Shown here: positions 5,713 to 60,425 of the stretch, in pieces
Position numbering within the stretch: position 1 is the first letter of the stretch
How the letters are laid out: every line of letters begins with the position of its first letter
From: Clostridiales bacterium
GTDB lineage: Bacteria; Bacillota; Clostridia; Lachnospirales; Lachnospiraceae
Direction: 5' to 3'
NCBI GenBank assembly: GCA_021202015.1
Contig: JAJQDV010000049.1
Span: 1-64,000, forward strand
DNA length: 64,000 nt
Translations under genes and position numbers: made by a program
Notes under the pieces: generated by a model
What the model saw: only the letters and a program-made list of their open reading frames with translations
What the model was told of the DNA's origin: nothing
Database searches by the model: none

Positions 5713-5832
5713 AATCTCTCAGATTTGCGGATCACCGTGCGGCTCTGCAGCCAAATTTCTCTCGTTCCCCTGCGCATTTTACCGGCATTTTTCTCAGGGA
5801 AAATTTCCGTTAAATTATATTTGAAGACGGAC

Positions 5833-6738
5833 TTATTCGCCCGGTGTCGGATTTTCCTCCAGAAACGGAAGAATTTTTTTCAGCGACGGATTCTCCACCT
5901 CCGGCATCCACGCGGCGATAATCTCCACCTGATTTTCCGACATGCCGATGGGCACCGTGGCGATTTTTCCCCGGGAAGCCGCCGGAATCGCCATATAGGC
6001 CGGCAGAATGGTTACTCCCATATTCGCGGAAACCATAAACATGATCGTCTCGACATCCTCGATACGATCCGTCACATTCGCCTGATATCCCCGACGGATA
6101 AAATTCTCGACGATATTCTGATCCTCGCCGATCTCACTGTCCGGAGTCGTCGCCAGGATCAGCGGCGCCTCTCTCAGATCCTCCCAGGTGATATACAGAT
6201 TCTGCGCCAGTACATGATTTTTCGGAAGAATCGCGACATAATGATCTCTCGCCACCCGTTTCAGAGAAATGCCGGAATAATATTTCTCCTGAAACATCGG
6301 CATCACCGCCAGATCCAGTTCTCCCTCCTTCAGCTGTTTTAAAAGCATAAACGGACTCAGGTTATAAAACCGCATGGAAATATTGGGATATTTCCGGTTA
6401 AAAGCCTGAATCCGGTCAGAGATTTCCGTATTGCCGATACCGATCGTAAACCCGAAGTTCAGGGTTCCGACAAAGCCGCTGGAGACTTCCTTTGTCCGTT
6501 GCACCGCGGCATCGATCCGGTTTATGATTCCGATTGCTTCGCTCTGAAACACCCGCCCCGCAGGCGTCAGCTCTACTTTACGTTTTGTACGCTCAAAGAG
6601 TTTTACACCCAGCTGTTCCTCCAGAACCCGGATCTGCTGGGTGACCGCCGTCTGCGAGACATAGAGAGACTCCGCCGCCTTTGTAAAATTCAGTTCACGC
6701 GCAACCGCGAGAAAATATTCCAGTTGCCTGCGATTCAT
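5833..6738 (-). CDS. LysR-family transcriptional regulator
   Basis: The 301-residue protein has a canonical N-terminal winged helix: MNRRQLEYFLAVARELNFTK and SLYVSQTAVTQQIRVLEEQL, followed by the LFERTKRKVELTPAG wing. A LysR substrate-binding domain fills residues ~90-300. The start follows GGAGGAG and overlaps the aldolase stop as ATGA, so the two are cotranscribed. LysR regulators are usually divergent from their targets; here it trails an aldolase gene and precedes cbiD on the same strand. It may control the aldolase unit, the cbi operon, or both; the sequence does not decide. Confidence 0.93.
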   Translation of the reverse strand: MNRRQLEYFLAVARELNFTKAAESLYVSQTAVTQQIRVLEEQLGVKLFERTKRKVELTPAGRVFQSEAIGIINRIDAAVQRTKEVSSGFVGTLNFGFTIGIGNTEISDRIQAFNRKYPNISMRFYNLSPFMLLKQLKEGELDLAVMPMFQEKYYSGISLKRVARDHYVAILPKNHVLAQNLYITWEDLREAPLILATTPDSEIGEDQNIVENFIRRGYQANVTDRIEDVETIMFMVSANMGVTILPAYMAIPAASRGKIATVPIGMSENQVEIIAAWMPEVENPSLKKILPFLEENPTPGE

Positions 6739-7932: not shown

Positions 7933-8541
7933 TTAAAATTGAAATGTATCCTTCAGGCCGACCCAGAGCTGATCCTTATCACTTAAGTTCAGCGGCGTCC
8001 CGTCGCTTAATGCATACCCTTCCGCAGAGGCAGATCCGCGATACTCTCCGGAAAGCTGCGGCCACTCAATACCGATCTCCGGATCATTCCACGCAAGTCC
8101 GCCCTCATCTCCCGGATGATAAAAATCCGTACATTTGTAACAGAACTCCGCCAGCTCGGAGAGAACCAGAAAACCATGGGCAAACCCTTCCGGGATGTAA
8201 AACATCTTTTTGTTTTCTTCCGTCAGCTCCACGCCGAACCATTTTCCGTAAGTCTCACTGCTGCTGCGCAGATCGACCGCGACGTCAAAAACGGATCCCT
8301 TCACCACACGCACCAGCTTGCCCTGCGGGAACTCTTTCTGAAAATGAAGTCCGCGTAAAACGCCTTTTACGGAACTGGACTGGTTATCCTGAACAAAGAT
8401 CATATTCAGGCCTTCCTCCTCCATATCCCGCTGATTGTAGGTTTCCATAAAATAACCGCGGGCGTCGCCGTGCACCGTGGGTTCGATGACGCAGAGTCCG
8501 GGGATGCCGCCCGCATTTTTTTCTACTTTAATCTGTGACAT
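7933..8541 (-). CDS. rfbC: dTDP-4-dehydrorhamnose 3,5-epimerase
   Basis: The 202-residue protein is a full-length RmlC: VHGDARGYFMETYNQRDM, FVQDNQSSSVKGVLRGLHFQ (with the catalytic His of RGLHFQ), and YIPEGFAHGFLVLSE. It epimerises C3 and C5 of dTDP-4-keto-6-deoxyglucose. The start follows GGAGGAAAA. It is the last of four dTDP-rhamnose genes (order rfbA, rfbB, rfbD, rfbC in the direction of transcription), 10 bp after rfbD. Confidence 0.97.
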   Translation of the reverse strand: MSQIKVEKNAGGIPGLCVIEPTVHGDARGYFMETYNQRDMEEEGLNMIFVQDNQSSSVKGVLRGLHFQKEFPQGKLVRVVKGSVFDVAVDLRSSSETYGKWFGVELTEENKKMFYIPEGFAHGFLVLSELAEFCYKCTDFYHPGDEGGLAWNDPEIGIEWPQLSGEYRGSASAEGYALSDGTPLNLSDKDQLWVGLKDTFQF

Positions 8542-8551
8542 TTTTCCTCCT

Positions 8552-9496
8552 TTAAAAAACCCCCTCTGTCTGCAGGAAACGGTGCAGCGCGTCCTGCCAG
8601 GTCGGAAGCGGGGTGAATCCGTTCTCCGACAGCTTTGATTTATCCAGGCGGCTGTTGAACGGGCGCGCCGCTTTGGATACGCCGTACTCGGCCGTGGTCA
8701 CCGGGGTGACGGAAAGGCTGCCGCGCGCGTACTCGGGATGCCCGAGCTCCGCCGCCTGGCGGAAAATCTCCACGGTAAAATCATACCAGCTGATGTAACC
8801 GCCCTCATTGGTGGCGTGGTAATAGCCGTATTTTTCGGTTTCGATCATATCCACCAGAAGCCTGGCCAGATCAAAGGTGTAGGTCGGCGTGCCGATCTGG
8901 TCGCTGACCACCTTCAGCTGATCGTGCGTCTTCCCGACGTTTAACATGGTCCGGATAAAATTCTTCCCATTTACGCCAAAGACCCAGGCGATCCGTACGA
9001 TGAAAAATTTCTCCAGCGCCGCCGTTACCGCCAGTTCTCCCTCCAGCTTTGTCTGCCCGTAAACATTCAGGGGCTTATAATCCTTACAGTCCGGCTGCCA
9101 GGGCTCGTCTCCCTGTCCGTCGAACACGTAGTCGGTACTGATATAGACCATTTTGCAGTCCAGCTTTTTGCAGGCTTCGGCGATATGCCGCGTACCATCC
9201 GCGTTGATCGCCCGAACCTTTTCGATCTTATCCTCATCCTCCGCGGCATCCACCGCGGTCCATGCCGCGCAGTGAACCACGACGTCCGGCCGGATCTCCG
9301 CGATCGTTTTCTCCACCATCGCAGCATCCGTGATATCCATCGGCACATAGGGCATCTGCGTCACCGCGGTGCCGTCAGCCGTGCCGCTGTAGGCCGGCGC
9401 CAGATCCGTACCGATTCCCTCATAGCCGCGCCGGTGAAGCTCATTCATGACGTCATGGCCCAGCTGCCCGGCCACGCCGGTTACAAATACTTTCAT
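8552..9496 (-). CDS. rfbD: dTDP-4-dehydrorhamnose reductase
   Basis: The ORF track starts at 9682, but the real start is the ATG at 9496 giving MKVFVTGVAGQLGHDVMNEL, the NAD(P)-binding N-terminus; AGGGAGGGAAGG lies just upstream. The 314-residue enzyme has CAAWTAVDAAE, the STDYVFDGQ motif and YGQTKLEGE (catalytic Tyr/Lys). It reduces dTDP-4-dehydro-L-rhamnose to dTDP-L-rhamnose. The 62-codon upstream extension overlaps rfbB out of frame and is discarded. Confidence 0.97.
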   Translation of the reverse strand: MKVFVTGVAGQLGHDVMNELHRRGYEGIGTDLAPAYSGTADGTAVTQMPYVPMDITDAAMVEKTIAEIRPDVVVHCAAWTAVDAAEDEDKIEKVRAINADGTRHIAEACKKLDCKMVYISTDYVFDGQGDEPWQPDCKDYKPLNVYGQTKLEGELAVTAALEKFFIVRIAWVFGVNGKNFIRTMLNVGKTHDQLKVVSDQIGTPTYTFDLARLLVDMIETEKYGYYHATNEGGYISWYDFTVEIFRQAAELGHPEYARGSLSVTPVTTAEYGVSKAARPFNSRLDKSKLSENGFTPLPTWQDALHRFLQTEGVF

Positions 9497-9509
9497 TCGC
9501 CTTCCCTCC

Positions 9510-10529
9510 CTACCGGTTCCCATACATTTTTTCGTAGTAATTCTGATACTCACCGGAGATGATGGTTTCCCACCACTCTTTATTGTCCAGATACCACTGA
9601 ATCGTCTTTTTGATACCGTCGGCAAACTTCGTCTCCGGAAGCCAGCCCAGTTCATTATGAATCTTGGTCGGGTCGATGGCATAGCGCATGTCGTGTCCCT
9701 TGCGGTCGGTCACATAGGTGATCAGGCTCTCCGGCTTGCCGAGTTCCTTACAGATGATCTTCACGATATCAATATTTTTCATCTCGTTATGACCGCCGAT
9801 ATTATAGACCTCCCCCACGCGTCCGTTGCGGATGATCAGGTCAATCGCCTTGCAGTGATCCTCCACGTACAGCCAGTCGCGGACATTCTCACCCTTTCCG
9901 TACACCGGCAGCGGTTTGTCATTCAGCGCGTTGGCGATCATCAGCGGGATCAGCTTCTCCGGAAAATGATACGGTCCGTAATTATTCGAGCAGCGGCTGA
10001 TCGTCACAGGCAGACCGTAGGTCCTGTGATAGGCCAGGACGAGCAGATCCGCGCCCGCCTTGGAGGAACTGTAAGGGCTGCTCGTGTGGATGGGCGTCTC
10101 CTCCGTAAAAAACAGATCCGGCCGGTCCAGCGGCAGATCGCCGTAGACCTCATCGGTGGAAACCTGATGATAGCGCACGATGCCGTACTTGCGGCAGGCA
10201 TCCATCAGCACCGCCGTGCCTTTGATATTCGTATCCAGGAAAATCTCCGGGTTTTCGATGGAGCGGTCCACATGGCTCTCCGCCGCAAAGTTCACCACCA
10301 TGTCCGGATGCTCTTCCTCAAAAAGCCTGTATACTGCCTCACGATCCGTGATGCTCTCCTTTACAAAACGGAAGTTCGGATTATCCATCACGGGAGCCAG
10401 GGTGGACAGATTGCCGGCGTAGGTCAGACAGTCCAGGCACACGATCCTGTAATCGGGATATTTGTTTAACATGTGGAAGACAAAGTTGCTTCCGATAAAT
10501 CCGGCGCCGCCGGTCACGATGATAGTCAT
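9510..10529 (-). CDS. rfbB: dTDP-glucose 4,6-dehydratase
   Basis: The 339-residue SDR has MTIIVTGGAGFIGSNFV, the STDEVYGDL motif and YSSSKAGAD (catalytic Tyr/Lys), as in RmlB. It makes dTDP-4-keto-6-deoxy-D-glucose, the branch point to rhamnose (RfbC/D here) and to Fuc4N (WecE at 40-41 kb). The start is set to the second Met at 10529: the first six codons of the ORF contain the AAGGAG ribosome binding site itself. This places the start about 18 bases after the rfbA stop. Confidence 0.97.
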   Translation of the reverse strand: MTIIVTGGAGFIGSNFVFHMLNKYPDYRIVCLDCLTYAGNLSTLAPVMDNPNFRFVKESITDREAVYRLFEEEHPDMVVNFAAESHVDRSIENPEIFLDTNIKGTAVLMDACRKYGIVRYHQVSTDEVYGDLPLDRPDLFFTEETPIHTSSPYSSSKAGADLLVLAYHRTYGLPVTISRCSNNYGPYHFPEKLIPLMIANALNDKPLPVYGKGENVRDWLYVEDHCKAIDLIIRNGRVGEVYNIGGHNEMKNIDIVKIICKELGKPESLITYVTDRKGHDMRYAIDPTKIHNELGWLPETKFADGIKKTIQWYLDNKEWWETIISGEYQNYYEKMYGNR

Positions 10530-10547
10530 TGCTTTTCTCTCCTTCAT

Positions 10548-11444
10548 TTAATATAATCCGTCCTGATACTTTCCGTCAAGGACATCCTTCAGGTACTGGC
10601 CGTACTCGTTCTTTTTCAGAAGCTCGTAAACTTTGAGAACGTCGTCCCGCGAGATCCAGCCGTTCAGATAGGCGATCTCCTCCAGACAGGCGATCTTGCG
10701 GTGCTGGTGCTGCTCCACGGTTTTTACAAAAGTGGTGGCGTCGACGAGGCTCTCGTGGGTACCGGTATCCAGCCAGGTGAACCCCTGTCCGAGCAGTTCG
10801 ACGTTGAGCGCGTCATTTTCCAGATAGATCCGGTTCAGATCGGTGATCTCCAGCTCGCCGCGGGCGCTGGGTTTTAAGTTCTTCGCGTATTCAATGACCC
10901 GGTTATCATAGAAGTAGAGTCCTGTCACACAGTAGTTGCTCTTCGGATGCTCCGGCTTCTCCTCAATGGAGATCGCCTTACCGCTGTGGTCAAACTCCAC
11001 GATACCGAAACGCTCCGGATCGTCCACATAGTAGCCGAACACCGTGGCGCCCTTTCCGGACTCCGCGTTCTCCACCGCGGCTTTCAGCCTTTTTTTCAGA
11101 CCGTGCCCCGCAAAGATATTGTCGCCGAGCACCATGGCCGCCGTATCGTCCCCGACAAAATCCGCGCCAATGACAAAGGCCTGCGCCAGTCCGTCCGGGC
11201 TCGGCTGCACCGCGTAGGAGAGATGGACGCCGAAATGGCTGCCGTCCCCCAGAAGCTCCTCAAAACGCGGCGTATCCTGCGGCGTGGAAATGATCAGGAT
11301 ATCCCGGATCCCCGCGTTCATCAGGACCGACATCGGATAATAGATCATCGGCTTGTCGTAGATCGGAAGCAGCTGCTTCGACGTGACCATCGTGAGCGGA
11401 TACAGCCGTGTGCCGGAGCCGCCCGCCAGAATGATTCCCTTCAT
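10548..11444 (-). CDS. rfbA: Glucose-1-phosphate thymidylyltransferase
   Basis: The 298-residue nucleotidyltransferase begins [18 protein letters not shown], the nucleotide-binding signature, and continues with [18 protein letters not shown] and [12 protein letters not shown]. It couples dTTP and glucose-1-phosphate to give dTDP-glucose. GGAGGAACAAATTC precedes the ATG. It is the first of the four dTDP-rhamnose genes and follows a GT2 gene after 69 bases. Confidence 0.97.
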
Positions 11445-20466: not shown

Positions 20467-20624
20467 GTATAATCGGACTTATTTCACAGTAGAAAAATGA
20501 TTTCTTCTGTGTTATTATGTTTTTTGACTGCATCCACAGCATCAGAGACGTCAGATTAATATTCCTGATTTTCCGATGCCGTATATGGATCACAGATTCT
20601 CCGAAGGATAAAGAGGACATCAGA

Positions 20625-23021
20625 ATGACAAAAAAGAAGAAAACCGTATGCTGGATTGCTGTACTGATCATCGTGGTCTGCGGGATATTTATCGTCCCGC
20701 TAAAAACAGAAAATGTAACCCTGCAGCTTCAGCTGGAAGACATGAAGAACGGCCAGGAACTGACCATCACACTTCTCAACAAAGACGGCGACGTTCTGAC
20801 GGAAAATATGCATGCCTACGCAGAGACTGCGGAGCTCATGCTGAATCCGGATTTTTTTGCGTGTGAAAGCATTACAGTCAGCGGTCTTTCCGAAACAGAT
20901 ACGGTCTCATCTATACGATTGTACAGCGGGAGCTATGACGCTTCACGGGACAGACAGATTGCGGAGATTGAGATCCGACAGCAGGGGACAGACGGCACTC
21001 TGGTTCTCAGCGGCGACATCTGTACCGAAATAGAAAAAGCCACCGACAACAACCGGGTTCTGAAGGGAAAGCTGCTCCTTCTCGCCCTGGCTGTTTATTT
21101 TCTTGCCCTGGCATATTCTTTGAAGAGGGAATCCAAAGTCGTCAAATACGTCCGGATTTTCCTGTGGCTCTTTGTGGGCGCTTACATTGTCGTCGGAATC
21201 GCCGGCGACTGGTTCGGATTACTGGATCGTTATGATACAGTTTCCAACGTCGGGGAGAGCGTACAGGACGTATCGATCAACGAAACCGCGGAATCACCGT
21301 TTTCCGTGACGGAGGATTCGCTTTCCGGTATAACGGTCTCTTTCTCTGCAAACGATGAGACTGTTTACGAGGATTTCGGCGTTCGTATCATACGGACAGA
21401 GGACGGGGAAGAGATATACAGCGGGTTATTTACGGCGGATTATTTAAAACAGAACGGGGAAATACAGGCCTTCTTTGCGGACGGATTGATTCCCGCGGGG
21501 GATTATACGCTGTTCCTGGAGCCGCTGGATCAGACAATCGAAAATACGATAAGTTTTCGGGCTGACGCAAACGGAACGCCGGAAATCACGTCCATGTACG
21601 GTCCGAATTACCGGAATCTGATCGTCCTGATTCTCTGTCTCATCGGAATCCTCCTGCTGCTTTTGCTCGCGTTCAATTACAGCGATATCAGATTGTCCGA
21701 AAAAACGACTGTCCGGCTCCTTTATCTCGGCGTTCTGGTTTACGCCGTTATCCAGGTCATATACTATGGAAAATATGTAGGCAATACACCGGATGAAATA
21801 GCCCACATATCCTATATTGCTTATTTACTGGAAAACAAAACGCTGATTCCGGATTTCCCGAATATGCCGACTTATAACCTGTCTGACGGAGTTCCCGTCG
21901 CAACCGAAGGAACCATCAACTACCTCGGCCATCCTCCGCTGTATTATTGGATCCTGACAGCTGTTCAGATGATTGTCGGCGGAGATACGATACATCTCAA
22001 CCTGCTGCGAACGGTCAGCGCAGGGATGGGATTCCTGGGGATCGCCGTCTTTTTCGGCATCGGCTATCGCAATATCTCACACAAAAACCCCTATATTCAT
22101 CTGGTCTACGCGGCCGCCTGCATAAGCGTACCGTTCATCACCTATGAATTCTGCGGGATCAATAATGACATCCTGTCATTTCTGGGTGTAGCTGTGGCAT
22201 CCTGGGGAATCCTGCGGTTTGCAAAGAAGAATCGGAACACAATAACGTTTCTGCTATTAAGCTGCGGAATGTTTCTGACCGTCTTCAGCAAGCTGACAGC
22301 CGGACTGGTGCTTGTGATCGTTTACCTCGTTTATTTTATATATGTCTGCCTGAAGGAAAAGAGCATAAAATGCATCCTGAACAAATCCTGCCTGGTCGTA
22401 ATTCCCTTTATTCTGGTCATCGCGGCTTACTTCGGGATCCTGTATCTGAGATACGGAACCGTTCAGCCGACATTGGCGTCCATGGATTTCACATACTATC
22501 AGAAAACTGGTTTCTATGTGAAATTCAGTGAACGTTCCGTTATGAACATACGGGAATATTTTAACTACTACTGGTCGAATTTCCTGTTGAACTGGTCCGA
22601 CATCCGATCACATATCGCCATATACAAACCAACTGCATGGTACGGATGGAACAGAATCATCTATCTGATCCTCCTGATCTGTCCGGTCTGCCTGATCAGA
22701 AGAAAAAAAACAGATCTCGATATATTTTGTCTGTGTACATTTGGCGGAATGCTGATCACCATGCTGATGCAGTTCTTCAATGCCTATCATAACATTTATT
22801 TTACAGCGGGATATCCCGGAGGATTTCAGAGCAGGTATTATCTTTGCTGGACGCCGATCCTGGCACTCGCTTTCGTGCAGCTGTTTTTGAAGCATGAGAC
22901 CGATGAATCGGACAGTCCGGCAAGCAGGCAGATCAGGATCAGAGTCCGGGCGATGGCTGTCGTCTCCGTCCTTCTGCTTTTCTACGGCAGTTTTATTTAT
23001 ACGGTGCTCTCTTACTATTAA
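20625..23021 (+). CDS. DUF2142-type GT-C fold membrane glycosyltransferase
   Basis: The start is moved to ATG 20625 (MTKKKKTVCWIAVLIIVVCG), preceded by AGAGG; the ORF-track extension is not needed. The 798-residue product has an N-terminal membrane anchor and an extracytoplasmic region. About ten further membrane helices follow, with GNTPDEIAHISYIAYLLENK as the first-loop PDE motif of DUF2142 proteins, equivalent to the catalytic acidic residues of GT-C enzymes. It should transfer a sugar from a polyprenyl-phosphate donor outside the membrane. It is the only polysaccharide gene here on the plus strand and ends in a shared bidirectional terminator. Confidence 0.82.
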   Translation: MTKKKKTVCWIAVLIIVVCGIFIVPLKTENVTLQLQLEDMKNGQELTITLLNKDGDVLTENMHAYAETAELMLNPDFFACESITVSGLSETDTVSSIRLYSGSYDASRDRQIAEIEIRQQGTDGTLVLSGDICTEIEKATDNNRVLKGKLLLLALAVYFLALAYSLKRESKVVKYVRIFLWLFVGAYIVVGIAGDWFGLLDRYDTVSNVGESVQDVSINETAESPFSVTEDSLSGITVSFSANDETVYEDFGVRIIRTEDGEEIYSGLFTADYLKQNGEIQAFFADGLIPAGDYTLFLEPLDQTIENTISFRADANGTPEITSMYGPNYRNLIVLILCLIGILLLLLLAFNYSDIRLSEKTTVRLLYLGVLVYAVIQVIYYGKYVGNTPDEIAHISYIAYLLENKTLIPDFPNMPTYNLSDGVPVATEGTINYLGHPPLYYWILTAVQMIVGGDTIHLNLLRTVSAGMGFLGIAVFFGIGYRNISHKNPYIHLVYAAACISVPFITYEFCGINNDILSFLGVAVASWGILRFAKKNRNTITFLLLSCGMFLTVFSKLTAGLVLVIVYLVYFIYVCLKEKSIKCILNKSCLVVIPFILVIAAYFGILYLRYGTVQPTLASMDFTYYQKTGFYVKFSERSVMNIREYFNYYWSNFLLNWSDIRSHIAIYKPTAWYGWNRIIYLILLICPVCLIRRKKTDLDIFCLCTFGGMLITMLMQFFNAYHNIYFTAGYPGGFQSRYYLCWTPILALAFVQLFLKHETDESDSPASRQIRIRVRAMAVVSVLLLFYGSFIYTVLSYY

Positions 23022-29151: not shown

Positions 29152-32100
29152 TTATTTATACAGGTATGACCACGACGACGAATTCGTCGGCGCGGCGGTT
29201 CCCTTTTTCACAAGCACGATACGGATGGCTTCCGCGCGCTTCGCCATTCCGCTGGTGCCGCACCATCCGGCAGTCCCGTCTGCACTGTCCCCCTCGCTCA
29301 GCCCCTTTGTCCATTTCGACCATCCGTAGGTCTGCACATGCACGGAGTAGTAAATATCATACTGCTCGGACAGTTCTCCGGTCAGCCGGATCTGAATCGC
29401 CTCCACACGCTTCGCCTGCCCGGTCGTCCCGGCCAGCGTCCCGTCGGAAACCCAACCCTGCGTCCCGTAGGTCTGCACATGTACGCGATACTGAATACTG
29501 CCGCTCACCGAAGTCAGTTGATTACTCTTTCGGATGCTGACCGCCTCCAGTCGTTTCGCCTGTCCGGTCGTCCCCAGCAGCGCACCGTCCGACTTCTCCG
29601 AAAGATTTCCGTAAGTCTGCACATGTCCGGCATAGAATACGGAATTTCCCGCCTCATTTGTGAGCAGTCCCCAAGATGTATTTGATACGATGCCGCCCAG
29701 ATTGGAAGCGGGCGCACTGGAATTTCCGCTGCTGTCTTTTTTCACCAGAACGACCTGGATGGCTTCCATCCTCTTGCTCAGGCCGGTCGTTCCCGCCGCC
29801 TCGCCGTTCTTTACCCAGCTCGTCCATCCGTAGGTCTGACAATGGACACGGTAGTAGATGTCCCAGGTATCGGCTGCGCTTCCGGTCAGCTCGATCTTTA
29901 CCGCCTGGATCATCTTGTTTGTAACGCTGTCCACTTCACCGTCATAACACCAGCTCCGCCAACCATAGGTCGCTACATGGGTGGAATACCGGATGCCGCC
30001 GTCCGTCTGTGTGTTCAGCACCAGCTGCAGCCGGTATAAAGCCTGTGCATCTCCGGTACTGCCGCTCATATTCCCGTCCGTTTCATACGACCCCCAGGAG
30101 GAGCCGCAGGTCCGGTATACCACATTCTCATTTTCTTTTAATTCCGAAGTGTCGGCGTAATTGCCGCTGCCGCCGGCGACTGTGTGCGTCCCGCTGCCGA
30201 GCGTTACTGCGAGATAAAGCCCGTCCGATACCTCCGCGCTCATTGTCTCGCCGTCCACAGTCAGCGTCGTATTCGCCGTGTTCGATACGGGAATCATTAC
30301 TCTGGCCTGCGTATTCGCCGGAACACAGATGGTCAGGGAGATCCCGCCGTTTCCGTCCATGGCATAGGAAGCCTCAATACTTCCCTGCAGCGTCGGTACC
30401 GTCACGGCGGCTTCCTCGACGCCGCCCGGCTGAAGCTTCACGTCAAACGTCCGGTATCCGCCCGACGTCGGCGTAATCCCGAACAGCCCTGTCACCAGCC
30501 AGGTACCGGGTGCGCTTCCCCAGGCATGGGAATACGACAGATTCGACTTGACCGAGCTGTCCCAGGCTTCCGACGTCGTCGTCGCACCCACGCTGTAGAG
30601 CATGTTCGCCCAGGTATGGCTGCCCTCATAGGTACTCGGATTGCTCAGGATCTGTCTGGCCAGCGTCCCCTCATTGCTGCGGTACAGTCCCTGCAACAGG
30701 AAATAGGTGGCGTAGACGCTCATCTGGTTTAATCCATCCTCACTGATGCTGTCCGCCAGCGTATCCGCCATGGACTGATCCGAATAAACGCCATATGCCA
30801 GCGCAAATGCCGTGGCCTGCTGCGCGTAATGATCCACTGCCGTGCCGGAGGAGGTCAGTCCGTCCCGGAATCTGCCTTCACTCGCATCATACAGTCTGGA
30901 GATCATGCTGCTCTTCACCGACTGCGCTTTTGCCGACCAGGTGCTCGCGTTACTGCTTTTCCCCAGCACCTGCGCAATATCCGCCATGGACTCGCAGGCG
31001 CCCGCATACACCGCGTTCAGCACCGTATTATAATAAGAGTTTGTCGTATCATATCCGTCTCTCTCATTGGTCGGCCAGTCCACCAGGATCGTCAGGGACG
31101 GCTTTTTCACGAGACCGTTGGAACCTGTGCTGAACAGATTCATCGCGGATTGCAGAGCGGAGTAATGCTCCTCCAGAAACTGCGTATCTCCGGAGTAGAG
31201 GTAATACTGCCAGGACGCCATAACGGCATACAGCCGATATTCCGCCGGCCAGGTCGGATTCGCGATCGCGTAATCCAGGGACTTCTTTGCCAGAGAATAA
31301 TCGCTTTCCATGGAAAACGCAGTCGTCATATTGATCAGCAGGTCGCCGCTGTATACCTGCCGTTCCCTGCTCTGCGTATCCACATACAGGTTCTGGCTCG
31401 TAGCGAGGATCGTATATTTTGCCAGATCATACTCATTATTCAGGATCGTGCTGGAACTGGAAAAATCCGAGGCCTCCTCCGTAAACTCCTGCCGCACCTG
31501 CAGTCCTTTCACATTTGAAGCGGATATCGTGTTCGAGCATCCGCTGATCTGCACATAGCGGAAGGTTTTCATGTTCAGTCCGGAAATCTGCTGACTGCCC
31601 TTTTTCAGCGTCCAGGTCTCCGCGTAAACATTTCCGGTCCTCATGGAATATTTTACACTCCCATTGGAATTCAGCTCTTCCCCATAATAAATCTTTATAC
31701 TCTGCTTCGCGGAACTGTTGATCGTAAGCTTGAGGCTCCCGCTGATCTCCTCGCCGAAATCGATGACATAGCTCCCGTCTGACAGCTTTTTCACGCTCTT
31801 CGGCGTCACCTCGTACCGCGAGATATTATCCTCCTCCTCCGGTTCCAGCGTGTAGGAAGAGATCCCCTTCACCGAGGAGGCCGACTTCCACGAAGATGTG
31901 CTGTATCCCGCGTCCAGCCAGCCGTGGGGATAAACTGTGCTGTTAATATTCTCAGCCGCCTGCGTATAGTATGTGGTATTCGACACCAGAGAGGATGTCT
32001 TTCCGTAAGCGCTGTCTCCCGCCAGCGCCCGCCAGGAATTGTGCGCGGTATCCGTGCTGAGGAGGACCGCGCTCGTCCCATCCTTATAATAGGCCGTCAT

Positions 32101-33123
32101 CTGTCCGAGGAAAGCATGCCCGGTCTCCGAATAACAGATCACCCCGATCACATTGCTGCCGTTTTCCATATACTCCGTCACATCATAAGTATTGTAATAG
32201 AGAACGCCCTCATTCACGCGGCTCGGCCCCATGCCCACACATTCCCCGTTGAGATAGAGATTGTAGACATACTGCCGGGTATCCTCCGGCGATATGGCAG
32301 TCGCGGTGAAAATCACTTTCTCCACATCGCTCATGTCCACGGTGGTTTCGCTTCTCAGAAATACAAAATCATCTGTCCCCGTCCAGATGCCTTTCGAAGC
32401 ATTCCATCCGCTCCCGACAGCTGTGGAGAAAGCCTGCGCCCCGGACAGCCCGCTCGTCCTGCCGTAGTTATCCCGGATCTGGACCTGCCAGTAATACAGC
32501 TGATTTTCCGCTGCATCCATTGCAATCGATACATTTGTGTTCGCATCCGACTCCACCCAGCCGGTATCGTATACATAATCCGACTGCGCGATCTGCGCCT
32601 CCGTCTGCGCGACCACAATGCGGTAAGCGGCCTGCACGGTATCATCCTGATCCGAATCGATACTCCAGCTGAAATACAGAGCATCCGCGGAAACGCCGAA
32701 AGGCTCTGAAAGCAGGTTGATACGCATGTCCCCGACGGCCAGTCCATCGTCATCCGTGTCATTCACGGAAGCCGCCTGTACCGGCGCCTCTTCCTCTTCA
32801 GAAGATGCCTCTTCCCTGGACGCAGGCTCTTCTTCCGCGGCAGCTTCCTCCGAAATCAAATCGCGGTCGGCCTCTTCATCTCCATCGGAAACCGCATCAC
32901 CGCCGGAAAGGCTCTCATCAGCGGAAGTGAATTCGCTGTCGGAAAAATCCTCTTCCCCAAAGCCCTCCTCCTCCGAAGCGGAGTTTTCTCCCGCGACGGA
33001 TTCCGTCACCACACCTTCCTCACCGGACAAATTCAGATCAGTCCCCGCCGCGGACACCGGTTCGGCTACCGCAGAAAAAATCAATGCTCCCGACAGAAGT
33101 AAACCTAACCATCGTTTTCTCAT
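29152..33123 (-). CDS. Secreted GH78 alpha-L-rhamnosidase with ChW repeats
   Basis: The 1323-residue protein has a signal peptide (MRKRWLGLLLSGALIFSAVA) and a long Ser/Glu/Asp linker (~30-145). Beta-sandwich domains typical of bacterial rhamnosidases follow, including YNLYLNGECVGMGPSRVNEG. A helical catalytic region (~555-890) carries TQSRERQVYSGDL and VDWPTNERDGYDT in place of the usual RDERxxWxGD motifs. After it come a C-terminal beta domain (VTVPTLQGSIEASY) and about six ChW repeats (~1000-1320), the first degenerate. It should release terminal alpha-L-rhamnose. Together with rfbABCD in the same cluster this suggests trimming of the cell's own rhamnose polymer, although use on foreign glycans is possible. 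AAAGGAGACAAAAA precedes the ATG. Confidence 0.92.
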   Translation of the reverse strand: MRKRWLGLLLSGALIFSAVAEPVSAAGTDLNLSGEEGVVTESVAGENSASEEEGFGEEDFSDSEFTSADESLSGGDAVSDGDEEADRDLISEEAAAEEEPASREEASSEEEEAPVQAASVNDTDDDGLAVGDMRINLLSEPFGVSADALYFSWSIDSDQDDTVQAAYRIVVAQTEAQIAQSDYVYDTGWVESDANTNVSIAMDAAENQLYYWQVQIRDNYGRTSGLSGAQAFSTAVGSGWNASKGIWTGTDDFVFLRSETTVDMSDVEKVIFTATAISPEDTRQYVYNLYLNGECVGMGPSRVNEGVLYYNTYDVTEYMENGSNVIGVICYSETGHAFLGQMTAYYKDGTSAVLLSTDTAHNSWRALAGDSAYGKTSSLVSNTTYYTQAAENINSTVYPHGWLDAGYSTSSWKSASSVKGISSYTLEPEEEDNISRYEVTPKSVKKLSDGSYVIDFGEEISGSLKLTINSSAKQSIKIYYGEELNSNGSVKYSMRTGNVYAETWTLKKGSQQISGLNMKTFRYVQISGCSNTISASNVKGLQVRQEFTEEASDFSSSSTILNNEYDLAKYTILATSQNLYVDTQSRERQVYSGDLLINMTTAFSMESDYSLAKKSLDYAIANPTWPAEYRLYAVMASWQYYLYSGDTQFLEEHYSALQSAMNLFSTGSNGLVKKPSLTILVDWPTNERDGYDTTNSYYNTVLNAVYAGACESMADIAQVLGKSSNASTWSAKAQSVKSSMISRLYDASEGRFRDGLTSSGTAVDHYAQQATAFALAYGVYSDQSMADTLADSISEDGLNQMSVYATYFLLQGLYRSNEGTLARQILSNPSTYEGSHTWANMLYSVGATTTSEAWDSSVKSNLSYSHAWGSAPGTWLVTGLFGITPTSGGYRTFDVKLQPGGVEEAAVTVPTLQGSIEASYAMDGNGGISLTICVPANTQARVMIPVSNTANTTLTVDGETMSAEVSDGLYLAVTLGSGTHTVAGGSGNYADTSELKENENVVYRTCGSSWGSYETDGNMSGSTGDAQALYRLQLVLNTQTDGGIRYSTHVATYGWRSWCYDGEVDSVTNKMIQAVKIELTGSAADTWDIYYRVHCQTYGWTSWVKNGEAAGTTGLSKRMEAIQVVLVKKDSSGNSSAPASNLGGIVSNTSWGLLTNEAGNSVFYAGHVQTYGNLSEKSDGALLGTTGQAKRLEAVSIRKSNQLTSVSGSIQYRVHVQTYGTQGWVSDGTLAGTTGQAKRVEAIQIRLTGELSEQYDIYYSVHVQTYGWSKWTKGLSEGDSADGTAGWCGTSGMAKRAEAIRIVLVKKGTAAPTNSSSWSYLYK

Positions 33124-33205: not shown

Positions 33206-35548
33206 TTACGGTTCATCTGCAGCCGCGGCAATCATATCCGCCAGAGCCTGTGCATTCCCCATCTCCGCAAACAGATGCCGTTCGTCCTCCGCAAACAGCT
33301 CCCGGTTCGCGGAGTTATCCCCCAAAATCATCTTCTTTTCCATCGCTTCATAAATATAGGCTTTTCCCGGAATTGTCCGCTTCGCCTTGTCGATCGTGGG
33401 ATGAAAATGTCCCGCAAGGCACAGATCCGCCTGCGCGATCTGCGCCGCCAGCTCCGGCTGAGACAGCCACTCATAAAACGTGGTATAAGGAAAATCTTCT
33501 TTCTTCACCCTTTTCACATCAACAGGGCCGATCATCGTAAACCGGATATCATTCCTGTCCCTCAGGATACGCTGTGCCTCCAGAATCACTTCCACGCCCT
33601 GCAGAGGCAAAATGCTGCCAAAATACAGAACCCGAAACCCTCTGTCATGATCCGGATCCCTGTCAGAGCTGTACCTGTCCTTGTCATAAATGCCGGTATC
33701 AGCCTCCAGGTACAGCACTTCCATCTTCTCAAAGGTCGCCTGAAACTCCTCCGAGAAGTATCTGCCGTCCGCAGCCGTGTCCACGATCACATGTTGTGAA
33801 TTTTCCAGTACCTTTCTGTCAATCCGATGCAGGATACGCGCCGGCAGAGATTTTGTTCCGAAATAACTTCTGTCATTGACACAGGTATCATACATGGAAA
33901 TAAAGAAATCGATGATGACCGTTTTCTGTCTGTTCCATTTCCTGAGGAACGGGAATACCAGCTGCGGAGAGAATCCGACAAAGATCACATCGGCCCTCTT
34001 CCAGGCTCCTCCCAGACAGGCGCGCCAGACTTTCAGAATCCGTTTGGGATAAGAAGAATCCGAAAAAACGATCTCCTCGAACTCCGCGGCATTTTCACGC
34101 AGAATTCGGATCTCCTGAAGATTTCGGATATAGTCCCTGTTCTTTGTCGACAGGAAAAGCACCTTCTTCCCTGCAGCCAGATCTGTCATGCTCTCACTCT
34201 TTACATTCACAGCATCCTCCGCATGTTTCCCTTCCCGTTCCGAAACTGCCCGATTCCTTCTCTCCTTCCGGATCAGGCGAAGGACGCAGAGAAACATTAT
34301 GATGTCCGCCGCCAGAAGTATCCCGATATAATAACAGCACAAACCTCTCAATTCATAATTGCGCAAAACCGACTTTCCGGTAATCACAAGAAGCAGGGAT
34401 ACTGCCGTAAATATGACATAGAAAATCGCCTGCTTCCGCAGCAGGATGATAATCAGATACAGCAGATTCAGAATGGCAATCAGTCCTCCTGCGATGAGCA
34501 TCAGATCCACTTCCACATGATAATCGTCCAGTGAAACACCGTAAATCCATCCCAGCAGGCGTGTGCCGATTAGCTCAGCAAAGAACACCCCGACGGCCAC
34601 AATTCCCGCCACGGCAGCGATCAGCCGGACGATACGCTTCTGAAGCCTGTCATGCTCACCCTGCTCCCGCCAGATCGCCATCCGGTTCAGCACCGGATTG
34701 AACATAAAGTTACTCAGCAGCGTCACGATATAGATGACCATAAATAAAATATTGAAATACGTCTGCTCCCGATCTGAAACCACCGAATCAATAATATATT
34801 TCGGCGCGTTGCTGATATACATCAGAAGAAACGTGGCAAATGCCACCGGTATGCATTCAACAAGCAGGGGCTTCATTTTCCCGCCGCTCTCCGAAGCCGG
34901 AGAAACCCGGTACTCCCTGCGCGGAATCCGGTTCAGAAGAAGGCTGAGGACCAATGTCGTAACAATGGAAATGACCAGTGACCCGATCAGATCCCGCAGA
35001 TAAAAATAGCAGACCATAAACTCCGCGATAAACACGATATTGCGGGTCGCCCATATTTTTGCGGAAATATCCAGACGGCCGAGCTGCTGCAGTCTTCCAT
35101 GCCACACATCCTCTGTGGATTCGATCATCTTATAGAGGCACAAAAGGGCAACCGTCGCCGTCTTAATCGGCACGTACTGCCGATATACCACATTAAAGCC
35201 GCAGTAGATCAGTGTAAACACCGCCATGGCAGCAATTGTCAGAACTCTCATATTCCTGTAATCGCGGAAATGATAATGCTCCGTGACATCCGTGACCTGG
35301 AAATTCCGCACGCCGAATTTTCCGACCGTCATCGCCAGATTGGCCGCGGCAAACCCGATCGCGATGTAACTCGCCGCCTCGATCTCGCCGAAACGAGTCA
35401 GCACCAGCATAAACAGCATGCTCTGAAAGGAGCTCGTCATGGCAGCCACCATATTCCAGAACCAGGCACTGCGATGCGGATTTTTGCTGTTCAGATATAA
35501 TCTGTAAATAAAATTTTCACCTTTGGAATTCGTCTGCGTCTCTATCAT
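33206..35548 (-). CDS. Fusion of MOP-type polysaccharide flippase and GT4-like glycosyltransferase
   Basis: The 780-residue protein (start ATG 35548; a TTG 27 bases upstream is the alternative) combines two functions in one uninterrupted frame. Residues ~1-420 are a multi-helix flippase with GKFGVRNFQVTDVTEHYHFR, closely resembling the stand-alone flippase at 41309 (GVRNFQVTDVAEQYSFR). After a charged linker (ERKHAE-like, ~425-445), residues ~445-780 form a soluble GT-B-like domain: KKVLFLSTKNRDYIRNLQE, FRVLYFGSILPLQGVEVI, and GKAYIYEAMEKKMILGDN with an E-x7-type donor motif. The gene overlaps the GT-C gene upstream by 32 bp. It may couple sugar addition to flipping; that is inference. Confidence 0.85.
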   Translation of the reverse strand: MIETQTNSKGENFIYRLYLNSKNPHRSAWFWNMVAAMTSSFQSMLFMLVLTRFGEIEAASYIAIGFAAANLAMTVGKFGVRNFQVTDVTEHYHFRDYRNMRVLTIAAMAVFTLIYCGFNVVYRQYVPIKTATVALLCLYKMIESTEDVWHGRLQQLGRLDISAKIWATRNIVFIAEFMVCYFYLRDLIGSLVISIVTTLVLSLLLNRIPRREYRVSPASESGGKMKPLLVECIPVAFATFLLMYISNAPKYIIDSVVSDREQTYFNILFMVIYIVTLLSNFMFNPVLNRMAIWREQGEHDRLQKRIVRLIAAVAGIVAVGVFFAELIGTRLLGWIYGVSLDDYHVEVDLMLIAGGLIAILNLLYLIIILLRKQAIFYVIFTAVSLLLVITGKSVLRNYELRGLCCYYIGILLAADIIMFLCVLRLIRKERRNRAVSEREGKHAEDAVNVKSESMTDLAAGKKVLFLSTKNRDYIRNLQEIRILRENAAEFEEIVFSDSSYPKRILKVWRACLGGAWKRADVIFVGFSPQLVFPFLRKWNRQKTVIIDFFISMYDTCVNDRSYFGTKSLPARILHRIDRKVLENSQHVIVDTAADGRYFSEEFQATFEKMEVLYLEADTGIYDKDRYSSDRDPDHDRGFRVLYFGSILPLQGVEVILEAQRILRDRNDIRFTMIGPVDVKRVKKEDFPYTTFYEWLSQPELAAQIAQADLCLAGHFHPTIDKAKRTIPGKAYIYEAMEKKMILGDNSANRELFAEDERHLFAEMGNAQALADMIAAAADEP

Positions 35549-37253
35549 GATATCCTTTATTTTGAATTTTAACAAATACTCCTCTATACAACAATGTCAG
35601 CCCACAATAAATAGAAACAATTTTAAATATTTCCATCAGGATATAGGCTCCACTGCAATAATATGGCACTGACAGGCTCCCCCAATTAGAAAAAACAGTA
35701 AAAATAAACATCTGGACAAACGCACTCAAGAGTACTGCCAAAAGGATAATCCACCTGTTAAATAATCGTTTATTTTTCAATTTTATATTAGGAACCTGCA
35801 ATATCGTCATAGCCACAAACGAAAGCACAGACAAGATACACAACGGCCATCTTAATATCTCATATACTTTTATAATATGATTTTCTAATTCTACGATTCG
35901 GTCAGACATCTGCACATACAAATCGTCCTCTTCATCCGGATACAAAAGCATTGAATTGACCACAAATTCCCATTCTCTTATTTCTTCATCTGAGCCACTG
36001 CTATAAGCAGTCTGCGACTCTACTCCCTCGTATGAAAAAATCTGACGCGCTGTATCTGTAATTGTTACCTTCACGAAATATGGTATTTCTTCTATTTCCA
36101 ACATTTTTGTACTGCTGGACAGGAAAATCCCCGATTTTATCATCAATTCACCATTATTGATCTGTTCCTGCAATTCATCTCGCACATTCTGAAGATATTC
36201 TATTGTTTCTTTTCCGTCCAAATAAAATCCAGCATTCGCTAAACCTGTTCGAAAACTCCACTGAATAATATCGCCATAAACATACTTACCGGTAGAGGCC
36301 CAACTCCGATAAGCAGCCAGATATATATCTTTATATTCTGACAAGGATTCACTGTGGTCAATAATATATTCATATTTATCAATTGACATAAAACAAATGT
36401 CCTCATTTAATTCCGGATCCGTATCATCATAGTCAATTTTGATGAATAATTCAGCCACATCATTAAATGCTGTTTTCGTCCTGTCATTTGTCGCAAATAT
36501 CCCATATTGGCTATAATTGATGCAGCGTAATGTAAGATTTCCTGCACATAAGATAAAAAATGGCATAAAAATAATTACCATTTTTTTCACAAGACCTGTC
36601 AGTTTTTTTTGTCTTCCGCCGTGTAAAATCAAAAAGATTCCGGAAAATATACTGCCAATGACAGCAAACGGAAAAATCCATATGGTATCTTCCCGAAGAT
36701 TGCAAAAGAAAAACAGGCTTACTCCTGCAAGGACAGAATATTTTATCATGTTTTTTTGCCTGCCAAGATTAAAATAGATCCCCAAAATCCCTGCAAATAT
36801 CAACAATACGAACGGTACGGTCAGTGCATTTCTATACAATCTCTGTACTACCGAATAATGAAAAGTTATGGGAGAGTAAATTAAAAATAAAAAAACAACA
36901 TATCGGACCCATTTTTTTGTTATAATATTCTTTAATACTTTTACCAAAATACCTGCTGACACAATATACAGCACCGATAAAAAAACGGAATACGGTATTC
37001 TGGTCAGACCGCAAAATGCACAAAACAATGAATACGTACAACCTTTCATCAACGTAAATTGGCTATATTCTCCCAGCCAATTACCTCTCATAAGGTTTAT
37101 CGTCATATTCATCAGACCCCCATCGTCATGAACCAACTCGGTTCTTGCATATACCGGGGTATTATAAGACAGCCATATTCGAAAAACAACCAATACTATT
37201 AATAATAACCATATTATCAGAGAACATTTGTTTACTTTTTTTAAATAGTTCAT
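35517..37253 (-). CDS. AT-rich GT-C-like multi-pass membrane protein
   Basis: The 578-residue protein has an N-terminal helix, a first external loop with ELVHDDGGLMNMTINLMRG (acidic DD motif as in GT-C transferases), about ten more helices, and a large loop (~250-420) before the last four helices. It probably transfers a polyprenyl-linked sugar outside the membrane. The gene is markedly more AT-rich than the rfb or ChW genes. No good ribosome binding site precedes ATG 37253; instead GAGGAG precedes a five-codon ORF (MKMGD) ending 12 bases upstream, so translation may be by reinitiation. Exact family not recognised. Confidence 0.72.
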   Translation of the reverse strand: MNYLKKVNKCSLIIWLLLIVLVVFRIWLSYNTPVYARTELVHDDGGLMNMTINLMRGNWLGEYSQFTLMKGCTYSLFCAFCGLTRIPYSVFLSVLYIVSAGILVKVLKNIITKKWVRYVVFLFLIYSPITFHYSVVQRLYRNALTVPFVLLIFAGILGIYFNLGRQKNMIKYSVLAGVSLFFFCNLREDTIWIFPFAVIGSIFSGIFLILHGGRQKKLTGLVKKMVIIFMPFFILCAGNLTLRCINYSQYGIFATNDRTKTAFNDVAELFIKIDYDDTDPELNEDICFMSIDKYEYIIDHSESLSEYKDIYLAAYRSWASTGKYVYGDIIQWSFRTGLANAGFYLDGKETIEYLQNVRDELQEQINNGELMIKSGIFLSSSTKMLEIEEIPYFVKVTITDTARQIFSYEGVESQTAYSSGSDEEIREWEFVVNSMLLYPDEEDDLYVQMSDRIVELENHIIKVYEILRWPLCILSVLSFVAMTILQVPNIKLKNKRLFNRWIILLAVLLSAFVQMFIFTVFSNWGSLSVPYYCSGAYILMEIFKIVSIYCGLTLLYRGVFVKIQNKGYHDRDADEFQR

Positions 37254-37386: not shown

Positions 37387-38352
37387 CTATTCCTCTTTCG
37401 CGCCGTCTTTCTCCTTATCATACTCCAGCTTTCTCACATGATACTGCACATCCTCCAACATTTTCCGGTTCGCGGCGATCACATCTCCGAGCAGACCGAT
37501 GACAAAAGTCTGAAACCCGATCATCAGCAGAATGGCGGCAAGAATCAAAGACTGGATATGCCCATCCCCTGCACCCTGCGCAAAAAACACCAGATACCGG
37601 ATACCGATGACCACGCCAATCGCGAAGATAACGCTTCCGATTGCCGTGAAAAACGCCAGCGGCCTGTACATGGCATAGGCCCGGATGATCGTCAGCATAG
37701 ATTTCTTGATATAACTGGACATACTGCTGAACAGCCGGGACGGGCGCAGCTCCTCATTCGTGCGAACCGGAACAGACTCCATCGCGATCTTTGTCCTGCC
37801 GGCCTGCACGATCGTCTCCAGTGTATACGTATATTCATTAATCACATTCATATGAAGAGCCGCTTCCCGGCTCAGCGCCCGGAATCCGCTGGGTGCGTCC
37901 GGGATATCGGACTTTGAAGCTTTCCGTACCACCCAGCTTCCCAGATGCTGCAGTCTTTTCTTCATCGGGGAAAAATGTTCGGTCTGGTCGATGGGCCGCT
38001 CCCCGATCACAATATCCGATCTGCCATCCAGAATCGGGCGGATCAGCTTCTCGATATCATCCGCGTTGTACTGGTTGTCCGCGTCTGTATTCACGATAAT
38101 ATCGGCGCCGTTACGAAGACAGGCATCCAGACCGGCCATGAATCCCTTCGCCAGACCTTTGTTCCGTCGGAAATTAACGATGTAATTCACGCCCCAGTTT
38201 CGAGCCACCTCCACGGTATTGTCGCGGCTGCCGTCGTTGATGATCAGATATTCGATCTCATCGACTCCATCAATATGCTTCGGCAGAGCATTCAATGCGA
38301 TCTCCAGTGTCTCCGCCTCATTAAAGCATGGTATCTGAATAATCAGTTTCAT
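37387..38352 (-). CDS. Polyprenyl-phosphate GT2 (DPM-synthase-like) with two membrane helices
   Basis: The 321-residue enzyme has MKLIIQIPCFNEAETLEIAL, YLIINDGSRDNT, and the metal motif in ADIIVNTDADNQYN. FRALSREAALHMN follows. Two C-terminal helices lie at ~230-290 (LAFFTAIGSVIFAIGVVIG and LILAAILLMIGFQTFVIG), then a charged tail. It would load a sugar onto undecaprenyl phosphate for the GT-C partner transcribed next (35517). GGAG precedes the ATG by nine bases. Confidence 0.9.
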   Translation of the reverse strand: MKLIIQIPCFNEAETLEIALNALPKHIDGVDEIEYLIINDGSRDNTVEVARNWGVNYIVNFRRNKGLAKGFMAGLDACLRNGADIIVNTDADNQYNADDIEKLIRPILDGRSDIVIGERPIDQTEHFSPMKKRLQHLGSWVVRKASKSDIPDAPSGFRALSREAALHMNVINEYTYTLETIVQAGRTKIAMESVPVRTNEELRPSRLFSSMSSYIKKSMLTIIRAYAMYRPLAFFTAIGSVIFAIGVVIGIRYLVFFAQGAGDGHIQSLILAAILLMIGFQTFVIGLLGDVIAANRKMLEDVQYHVRKLEYDKEKDGAKEE

Positions 38353-38407: not shown

Positions 38408-39988
38408 TCACACAACTCCTTCGATCAGAATCTTATCACCAAGAACGATCTCCCTGACACCACATGTTTTCTTCTTATTAAAATTAAAACTCAGCATATA
38501 TCCCTTTTTCATATGAAAATAATCAAGATAACCGAAAAGCTGTCTTTCTCCACGTTCGTTATATGCATTGCCGCGCCAGATCTTGAGTTCCAGTATGTTT
38601 TGCTCGCCCTGGTAATAAATAACCAGATCCATCCGCTCACTGTCTCTGGTCTGCGGCTCTATGCTATAATTACCAATCCCATTGATGATCGGTTTTAAAA
38701 ACAGAAGAAAATATTTTCTTCCCACCTTCTCCAGAAACTCCTCATCCTCTTCCCCGTAAAGTTCTTCGAAAGTCTCAATGAACTTCTCTAAAATACGTCG
38801 AACATTGAGATGACCGCCGGTTATAAACTGATTTCTTTCCTGTGCAGCTGCGGCGTACAATTTGTTTTCAGCAAGTTCTTCCGAAATAAAAGTATTATAA
38901 AGCACCATCTCAAAAATGCGGTTCGATATGACAGCCGTATCATTTTCATTCCGGATAAAACCATACATGGCGGCATCTTTTATATAAGAGTTCGTTATAA
39001 CGTAAGGAATCGGCTGACCGTTAAAAAGCAATTCCTGCAAAAGAGATTTTAACTCCGGGTACATTTTTAACTTCCCCAGCATGGATTCATAAAGAGGATT
39101 ATCTTCCTTAATAACTCTTTTCACCGACTCACGGATGCCAGCCTCTGTCCACGCTTTCGTTTTGTCCGGGAAATCTGCGGTTCCGGCTATTTTTTCGTCC
39201 AACAATTTGCAGATTCGCGAAACCAAAACCGGATATCCGTACGTCTCATCATAAATCATTCCGGCCATCTCGCTGATATTCATTCCGGTGTGATAATCGC
39301 ATTCATATTGTTCCAGCATATTTATAATATCTGCTGTTCCAAAACTCATATCTACGTCAAACTCAGCTGCTATGTTCCACGGACTGTTTTCTTTATGATC
39401 CTCTTCTGTGCGAATTTTTCTCCTCATGCTGCGAACATCATGAACACCGGCAAGAATCACTGACTGAAATGTCGGAACATCCGGACGCCGCAGATAATAC
39501 GCACGTAATTGGGAAAGGAAATCAAGAAACACCTGATTGTTTGATGCGGAATCTGCCTCATCAATAATCAGAACCGGTGCTTTCTCCAGCTTCCCGCACC
39601 ACACTTTTATTACTTTGAAAAGAGCCTGCAGAGAATTGATTCTGGCAGTCTTTTCAGCAAAAGCGGCAAACTGTTCACGGATGTCCTCCGGGCAAACGGC
39701 GACGGCATCCAATATCTCCTCAGCAAATGCCGCCACGAAATTCTGTACACTCGCAAATGACACCTCATCCATCATCTGAAAATCCAGGCTGATTACCACA
39801 TATTCTTCTTCCAGAAAATCAGCCAATGCCCGTAATGTAGTGGTCTTTCCATACTGTCTGGCCCGGTTGATCACAAAATAATCTCCGGCATCAACCATTT
39901 TTTTAATCGCATCGAGCCTGGACTTCAGATCTACCATATAGTGTACATCTGATCGGCAGGCTCCATTTACATTAAAGATTTTCGCCAT
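38408..39988 (-). CDS. AAA-ATPase-like protein with C-terminal PD-(D/E)XK nuclease domain
   Basis: Start set to ATG 39988 (MAKIFNVNGACRSD), eight bases after GAGGAG, giving 526 residues. The N-terminal P-loop reads VINRARQYGKTTTLRAL (Walker A variant) and PVLIIDEADSAS is Walker B. The C-terminus has MDLVIYYQGEQNILELKIWR, a PD-(D/E)XK-type D...ExK active site. Such AAA-like/nuclease proteins occur in many copies in gut Clostridia and Bacteroides; function is unknown and possibly mobile or defensive. It interrupts the polysaccharide genes between GT2 and wecE and is probably an insertion. Confidence 0.85.
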   Translation of the reverse strand: MAKIFNVNGACRSDVHYMVDLKSRLDAIKKMVDAGDYFVINRARQYGKTTTLRALADFLEEEYVVISLDFQMMDEVSFASVQNFVAAFAEEILDAVAVCPEDIREQFAAFAEKTARINSLQALFKVIKVWCGKLEKAPVLIIDEADSASNNQVFLDFLSQLRAYYLRRPDVPTFQSVILAGVHDVRSMRRKIRTEEDHKENSPWNIAAEFDVDMSFGTADIINMLEQYECDYHTGMNISEMAGMIYDETYGYPVLVSRICKLLDEKIAGTADFPDKTKAWTEAGIRESVKRVIKEDNPLYESMLGKLKMYPELKSLLQELLFNGQPIPYVITNSYIKDAAMYGFIRNENDTAVISNRIFEMVLYNTFISEELAENKLYAAAAQERNQFITGGHLNVRRILEKFIETFEELYGEEDEEFLEKVGRKYFLLFLKPIINGIGNYSIEPQTRDSERMDLVIYYQGEQNILELKIWRGNAYNERGERQLFGYLDYFHMKKGYMLSFNFNKKKTCGVREIVLGDKILIEGVV

Positions 39989-40083
39989 CAGCCAAACTCC
40001 TCTTTTCCAAGAATTATATATCAAATAATACATCGCATACTATAAGTACAGAAACAACTTCTGTTTTTATAGTCCACTTGACA

Positions 40084-59186: not shown

Positions 59187-60425
59187 CTAATCCCTGCGGA
59201 ACAGATCCCTCGTATACACCTTCTCCTGCACATCGTCCAAACAGCTGTCATAGCGGTTCGCGATAATGGAATCCGACATGATCTTGAACTGGTCGAGGTC
59301 ATTGACCACCTTGCTCCCGAAAAACGTGCTCCCGTTCTCCAGCGTCGGCTCGTAGACGATGACCGTGGCGCCCTTCGCCTTGATCCGCTTCATGATCCCC
59401 TGGATGCTGCTCTGTCTGAAATTATCGGAATTCGTCTTCATGGTCAGGCGGTACACGCCGACCATGCAGGTCTTTTCCTCCGTCGCGTTATAGTCGCCGC
59501 GGTTATAATAATCATAATATCCCGCCTGCCGCAGCACGCGGTCCGCAATAAAATCCTTCCGCGTGCGGTTGGACTCCACGATGGCCTCGATCAGGTTCTC
59601 CGGCACATCCTTATAGTTGGCGAGCAGCTGCTTCGTATCCTTCGGCAGGCAGTAGCCGCCGTAACCGAAGGAGGGATTGTTGTAATGGCTGCCGATCCGG
59701 GGATCCAGGCATACGCCCTCGATGATCTGCTGCGTGTTCAGTCCCTTCATCTCCGCATAGGTATCCAGCTCATTGAAATAGGACACCCGGAGCGCCAGAT
59801 AAGTGTTCGCGAACAGCTTTACCGCCTCAGCTTCCGTAAATCCCATAAAGAGCTTGGCGATATCCTCCTTGATCGCGCCCTCCTCCAGGAGACCGGCAAA
59901 GGTGTGAGCCGCCTTGCTGAGCCGCTCATCGTTTAAATCCGTGCCGACAATGATCCGGGAAGGATAGAGGTTGTCATACAGTGCGCGGGACTCCCGCAGA
60001 AACTCCGGACTGAAAAGGACATTTTCCGTTCCGTATTTTTCTCTTACAGACTCCGTATAACCCACCGGAATCGTGGACTTGATCACCATGAACGCCTCGG
60101 GCGCATACTTCATGACCAGCTCGATCACGGCCTCTACCGCGGACGTATCGAAAAAATCCTTCGTGCTGTCATAATTCGTCGGCGCGGCGATCACGACAAA
60201 ATCAGCGCCGGTATAGGCCGCTTCCGCATCCAGCGTAGCGGTCAGATTCAGCTCACGTTCCGCCAGATACTGCTCAATATCGACATCCTGAATGGGGGAA
60301 ATCCGGTTGTTTACCATCTCCACCTTCTCCGGAATAATGTCAACTGCATATACTTCATGATGCTGCGCCAGTAAAATGGCGTTGGATAAACCGACGTATC
60401 CGGTTCCCGCAACTGCGATCTTCAT
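59187..60425 (-). CDS. ugd: UDP-glucose 6-dehydrogenase
   Basis: The 412-residue enzyme begins [20 protein letters not shown] (NAD-binding). Other marks are [25 protein letters not shown] and [14 protein letters not shown] with the catalytic cysteine. It oxidises UDP-glucose to UDP-glucuronate with two NAD. GGAGG precedes the ATG. It follows the UDP-glucuronate epimerase gene after 119 bases that contain a dispersed hairpin repeat. Confidence 0.94.

Follow-up and report, generated by a model that had tools for sequence, protein, structure and literature searches.

A MOP-type flippase joined to a GT4-like glycosyltransferase in one open frame in three related species of Clostridia

We identified a single gene that joins a MOP-type flippase to a GT4-like glycosyltransferase in a 64,000-nucleotide stretch of a clostridial genome (hereafter the window), and recovered the same fusion from two further species. 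The gene almost certainly encodes a real fused flippase and GT-B protein, and the occurrence of this merged protein in three related species of Clostridia suggests a direct link between the final step of assembly and export. The fusion and its neighbours are located in Table 1.

Table 1. Location of the fusion gene, its parts and the neighbouring genes discussed in the text (window positions).
Feature	Coordinates	Strand	Basis
Fusion gene, MOP-type flippase + GT4-like glycosyltransferase, 780 aa	33206..35548	-	One open frame; same fusion in L032 and L033; purifying selection
Flippase half, residues 1-428, 12 predicted TM helices, N-in/C-in	34265..35548	-	Paralogue identity, helix count, loop charges, Foldseek
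Linker, basic and variable, residues 429-458	34175..34264	-	In frame in three species; low pLDDT; pN/pS; indels
GT-B, GT4-like glycosyltransferase half, residues 459-780	33209..34174	-	PF13692; Foldseek; family-invariant residues kept
Polytopic membrane protein, 578 aa; candidate acceptor-side (GT-C-like) enzyme	35517..37253	-	32 nt overlap with fusion start
GT2, DPMS/ArnC/AglJ-like, two C-terminal TM segments; putative polyprenyl-phosphate sugar synthase	37387..38352	-	Homology
Stand-alone paralogous flippase, 426 aa	41309..42589	-	PF01943 (E = 5.2e-8); 32% identity; separate tree branch

Frame and conservation of the fusion gene

The fusion gene starts with an ATG at position 35548 and runs uninterrupted to its stop codon; an alternative TTG start 27 nt upstream would extend the product to 789 aa. 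The sequence-only reading had described an uninterrupted frame linking a MOP-type flippase to a GT-B-like domain, and this description held up, as a search for the domain pair in other genomes recovered single-frame fusions of the same build at loci L032 (7374-9713, 779 aa, 80% identity to the window's fusion) and L033 (9980-12292, 770 aa, 73% identity). Judged by coordinates, these loci coincide with G402 and G403, which leaves the count at three, all separate species of one genus. The search covered genome contigs and the genus, in which three of 20 genomes carry the fusion.

Both halves of the fusion are under strong purifying selection, with pN/pS values of 0.16-0.24 for the flippase half and 0.17-0.19 for the glycosyltransferase half across the fused trio, in which synonymous sites are saturated (dS about 1.6-2.7). 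The linker is free to vary in sequence and length (pN/pS 0.64-1.03), has low pLDDT at residues 436-450 of an AlphaFold2 model, and carries indels that are every one a multiple of three. Saturated dS, constraint on both halves and multiple-of-three linker indels in three species together exclude, for practical purposes, a chance or sequencing merge. That an error of sequencing or assembly joined two genes, a risk raised by the sequence-only reading, is thus extremely improbable: the window's genome is only a draft (2.2 Mb, 73 contigs) and a small frame change at the junction sets the fusion apart from its nearest unfused relative, but two separately assembled species share the join with linker indels that differ and still stay in frame. 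An internal start producing a separate glycosyltransferase was rejected as well, since candidates occur in the window (GTG at codon 447 after GGAGG, ATG at codon 454) and in L032 and are not common to all three species, L033 having neither ATG nor GTG there.

Predicted structure of the two halves

The AlphaFold2 model of the fusion, computed from six-sequence input (mean pLDDT 64), places two Rossmann-like parts after 12 long helices; most flippase blocks have a pLDDT of 45-70, which is low confidence, and most glycosyltransferase blocks one of 65-90. The flippase half by itself had no Pfam match, and its profile had no match among PDB sequences. Its residues 26-401, counted from the TTG, align with the stand-alone flippase paralogue that the sequence-only reading had correctly placed at 41309 (E = 1e-53), and that paralogue itself matches Pfam Polysacc_synt. 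The same Pfam model is matched by four of ten members of the flippase family, the fused half not among them. On sequence homology, shown through the paralogue, the flippase half is a member of the MOP superfamily (PST/MATE). Its 12 helices lie within the 12-14 TM segments expected of this superfamily, and Foldseek, using the low-confidence model, related the N-terminal half to MATE transporters (3vvo, E = 8e-6, TM 0.56 by target; also 6gwh). In a count over alternate loops, those that share a side with the two termini hold 33 Lys and Arg residues and those of the opposite side 9, so the topology should be N-in/C-in with the enzyme domain in the cytoplasm.

The C-terminal half matches Glyco_trans_1_4 (PF13692) with 32.3 bits versus a curated cut-off of 27, and all 27 members of its family match both PF13692 and PF00534 at E <= 0.01. 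The sequence-only reading had called this half GT4-like and had allowed that it might lack any glycosyltransferase fold; structure prediction gave a GT-B fold, which by Foldseek it shares with the GT4 enzymes MshA (3c4q, E = 2.6e-8), BshA, PglA and PimA. Unlike these enzymes, it is joined to a flippase and does not have the canonical donor-site residues: the EX7E motif and the Arg/Lys phosphate-binding pair of typical GT4 enzymes are absent from the whole family. In the stretch equivalent to EX7E (RTIPGKAxIYx), the Glu preceding AM is not conserved, nor does a Glu lie eight residues ahead of that position; GRLQPFKG of MshA aligns with FGSILPLQG. We therefore name the domain GT4-like and do not assign it to GT4.

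Origin and distribution

Outside the fused trio, searches that covered 397 family genomes and 392 from the order found each half as a stand-alone protein, of about 320-400 aa for the glycosyltransferase and about 410-460 aa for the flippase. Strong matches to the glycosyltransferase half are confined to one family (f1) in the 392 genomes of the order. Among the best ~155 PF01943 matches that were listed for the phylum (349 genomes), no frame exceeds 597 aa and no comparable fusion was found. Of five flippase frames of the family reported at 674-1134 aa, four proved to be ordinary flippases, about 420-455 aa long, and the fifth (L037) is truncated at a contig end.

The fused trio forms one group in the trees of both halves. 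Genome G385 falls in the nearest group in each, with a support of 100/99 in the glycosyltransferase tree and 98/93 in the flippase tree, the latter also placing G349 in that group. The gene order in G385 (locus L040) is YfhO, GT2, flippase and GT4-like glycosyltransferase, with the flippase stop at 6505-6507 and the glycosyltransferase ATG at 6512, i.e. 4 nt apart and in different frames. This arrangement looks like the pre-fusion state. Most likely, the fusion arose by end-to-end joining of two neighbouring genes, for a flippase and a cytoplasmic GT-B (GT4-like) enzyme; the simplest history would be a single small indel at a G385-like junction in the ancestor of the fused species.

Neighbouring genes

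The nearest solved relatives of the GT2 protein by sequence are dolichol-phosphate-mannose synthase (DPMS) and ArnC, and its match to the NCBIfam AglJ model (E = 6.6e-33) stays under the model's cut-off. By this homology it should make a polyprenyl-monophosphate sugar, and by homology and position a polyprenyl-phosphate-sugar-synthase-like GT2 adjoins the flippase locus, as in three-component systems. Profile searches around the 28 loci that best match the glycosyltransferase half, from which neighbour fractions are indicative, recovered a GT2 orthologue near 22, a flippase of the fusion's family near eight (three of them fused) and YfhO near four. The steadiest neighbour of the glycosyltransferase half is thus GT2, ahead of the flippase, and with 20 of the 28 loci having no flippase of this family nearby the tie between glycosyltransferase and flippase is not general. 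A DPMS/AglJ-like GT2 paired with a GT4-like enzyme was observed in many of the family's genera, where the accompanying flippase and YfhO are shuffled (L040 4240-7495; L041 6513-11273; L042 4560-7953).

YfhO genes are present in L032, L033, L040 and L041, and no recognisable YfhO was found in the window or its genome. In YfhO's place, between GT2 and the fusion, the window has the 578-aa membrane protein, a candidate for the GT-C role that had no Pfam match and has HDD and RED motifs in common with one homologue. Profile comparison gave no support for its being a YfhO homologue.

Proposed mechanism and alternative explanations

By analogy with three-component systems and the Haloferax AglJ pathway (see below), we infer the chemistry and the coupling as follows. 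The neighbouring GT2 would charge polyprenyl monophosphate with a sugar at the inner face of the membrane; the fused GT4-like domain, kept there by the C-in flippase, would attach a further sugar; and the flippase half would carry the finished lipid-linked glycan outward. More speculatively, a GT-C-like membrane enzyme (the YfhO homologue in L032 and L033, perhaps the 578-aa neighbour here) might then transfer it to a surface polymer. Since the first lipid-linked sugar is probably made by GT2, elongation is a more likely role for the fused domain than initiation. We modestly favour this model as a whole, that is, a real fusion with a GT2 start, GT4-like extension and export by the attached flippase; the elongate-then-flip step on the GT2 product is a slightly more tentative proposal, and the substrate and the order of steps are guesses. 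The coupling of lipid-linked sugar synthesis to its movement, proposed in the sequence-only reading, is a plausible hypothesis.

The fusion could also be a mere tether or a convenience of expression, with domains that work as in their unfused relatives and are coupled in nothing beyond a fixed stoichiometry. This somewhat improbable reading draws on the adjacent or overlapping unfused flippase and glycosyltransferase genes in G385, G707 and G182, on the unconstrained linker of about 30 residues, and on the restriction of the fusion to three genomes of one genus; its preservation in all three through deep divergence nevertheless suggests that it carries at least no cost. Less probable is that the glycosyltransferase half assembles a repeat unit linked through pyrophosphate (Und-PP, Wzx/Wzy-type), with the flippase half as its conventional Wzx. 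The cluster holds rhamnose genes and many glycosyltransferases, and the genome encodes initiating phosphoglycosyltransferases (PF02397), but both of these genes are on other contigs and the steady DPMS/ArnC-like GT2 neighbour would give a monophosphate-linked sugar. It is less probable still that the GT-B domain transfers no sugar and serves the flippase in substrate recognition or regulation, as the missing donor residues throughout its family would allow: about 40 residues, many of them charged or polar, are invariant in the 27 members, stand-alone proteins included, all are retained in the fused half, and these residues, like the strong constraint on the fused form, point to an active site.

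Comparison with known systems

The proposed sequence of GT2 start, GT4-like extension and export resembles three-part systems composed of a polyprenyl-phosphate-sugar synthase, a GtrA-, Wzx- or MATE-type flippase and a GT-C enzyme (PMC8035078, PMC11127046). The flippases GacK of S. pyogenes and ORF14 of Citrobacter youngae have the same MOP-superfamily membrane part as the fusion, and their systems, like the fusion loci, include a polyprenyl-phosphate-sugar-synthase-like GT2 neighbour, with YfhO nearby in L032 and L033 (PMC8035078, PMC11127046). GacK and ORF14 stand alone, whereas here a GT-B domain is attached to the flippase C terminus. In Haloferax, AglJ starts and further glycosyltransferases extend a glycan on dolichol monophosphate, and in a second pathway Agl15, a relative of AglR, is the proposed flippase for a dolichol-phosphate tetrasaccharide (PMC3871713). 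The haloarchaeal AglJ-AglG-AglI-AglE route with Agl15/AglR has an AglJ-like enzyme at the first step, glycan growth on a monophosphate carrier and putative flippases, as proposed here (PMC3871713). Unlike the fusion, it consists of separate proteins throughout and serves archaeal N-glycosylation.

We found no description of a MOP flippase-glycosyltransferase fusion in open-licence papers by literal word search; the fusion is a new domain architecture made from known parts. GtrA/DPMS proteins join a synthase to a GtrA membrane domain in one chain, GtrA being unrelated to MOP. Enzyme-flippase fusions are already known in principle from MprF and, by prediction, AglD (PMC5898192). Both follow the same principle as the fusion, in that one chain combines the enzyme producing a charged lipid with a membrane domain proposed to flip it (PMC5898192), but their membrane domains (COG0392, not MOP) and enzymes (GT2 or aminoacyl transfer, not GT-B) are unrelated.

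The natural fusion identifies the enzyme that most probably completes the substrate of the flippase, so the pair can be tested directly against matched controls, the unfused relatives in G385 and G707. It draws attention as well to a GT2 and GT4-like module that is common in this bacterial family. The choice of lipid-linked substrates by MOP flippases has recently been described as enigmatic (PMC11759038). An unlikely, more far-reaching possibility is a single-chain build-and-flip machine, in which the flippase prefers the product handed over by its own glycosyltransferase domain and the GT-B family has an unusual donor site; if true, the fusion would show directly how substrate choice is enforced.

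Other genes of the cluster

Beside the fusion, the window encodes an alpha-L-rhamnosidase-type protein with five ChW repeats (29152-33123, minus strand), and L033 has a similar gene after its fusion region. Genes resembling those for dTDP-rhamnose synthesis lie at 7933-11444, and the rhamnosidase-type protein perhaps remodels a rhamnose polymer that the cluster produces. The UDP-sugar dehydrogenase gene is whole in the window (59187-60425) and in L033, and is broken into two overlapping frames in the L032 assembly (4637-6219, plus strand). AAA-ATPase/PD-(D/E)XK-like genes sit amid the glycan genes of the window (38408-40033, minus strand) and L032 (1712-3424, plus strand); they are apparently different members, as if inserted here repeatedly. 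A lone plus-strand gene among minus-strand genes (20517-23021) encodes an 834-aa membrane protein with no Pfam match, which an 818-aa protein after the fusion in L033 (12282-14738) resembles.
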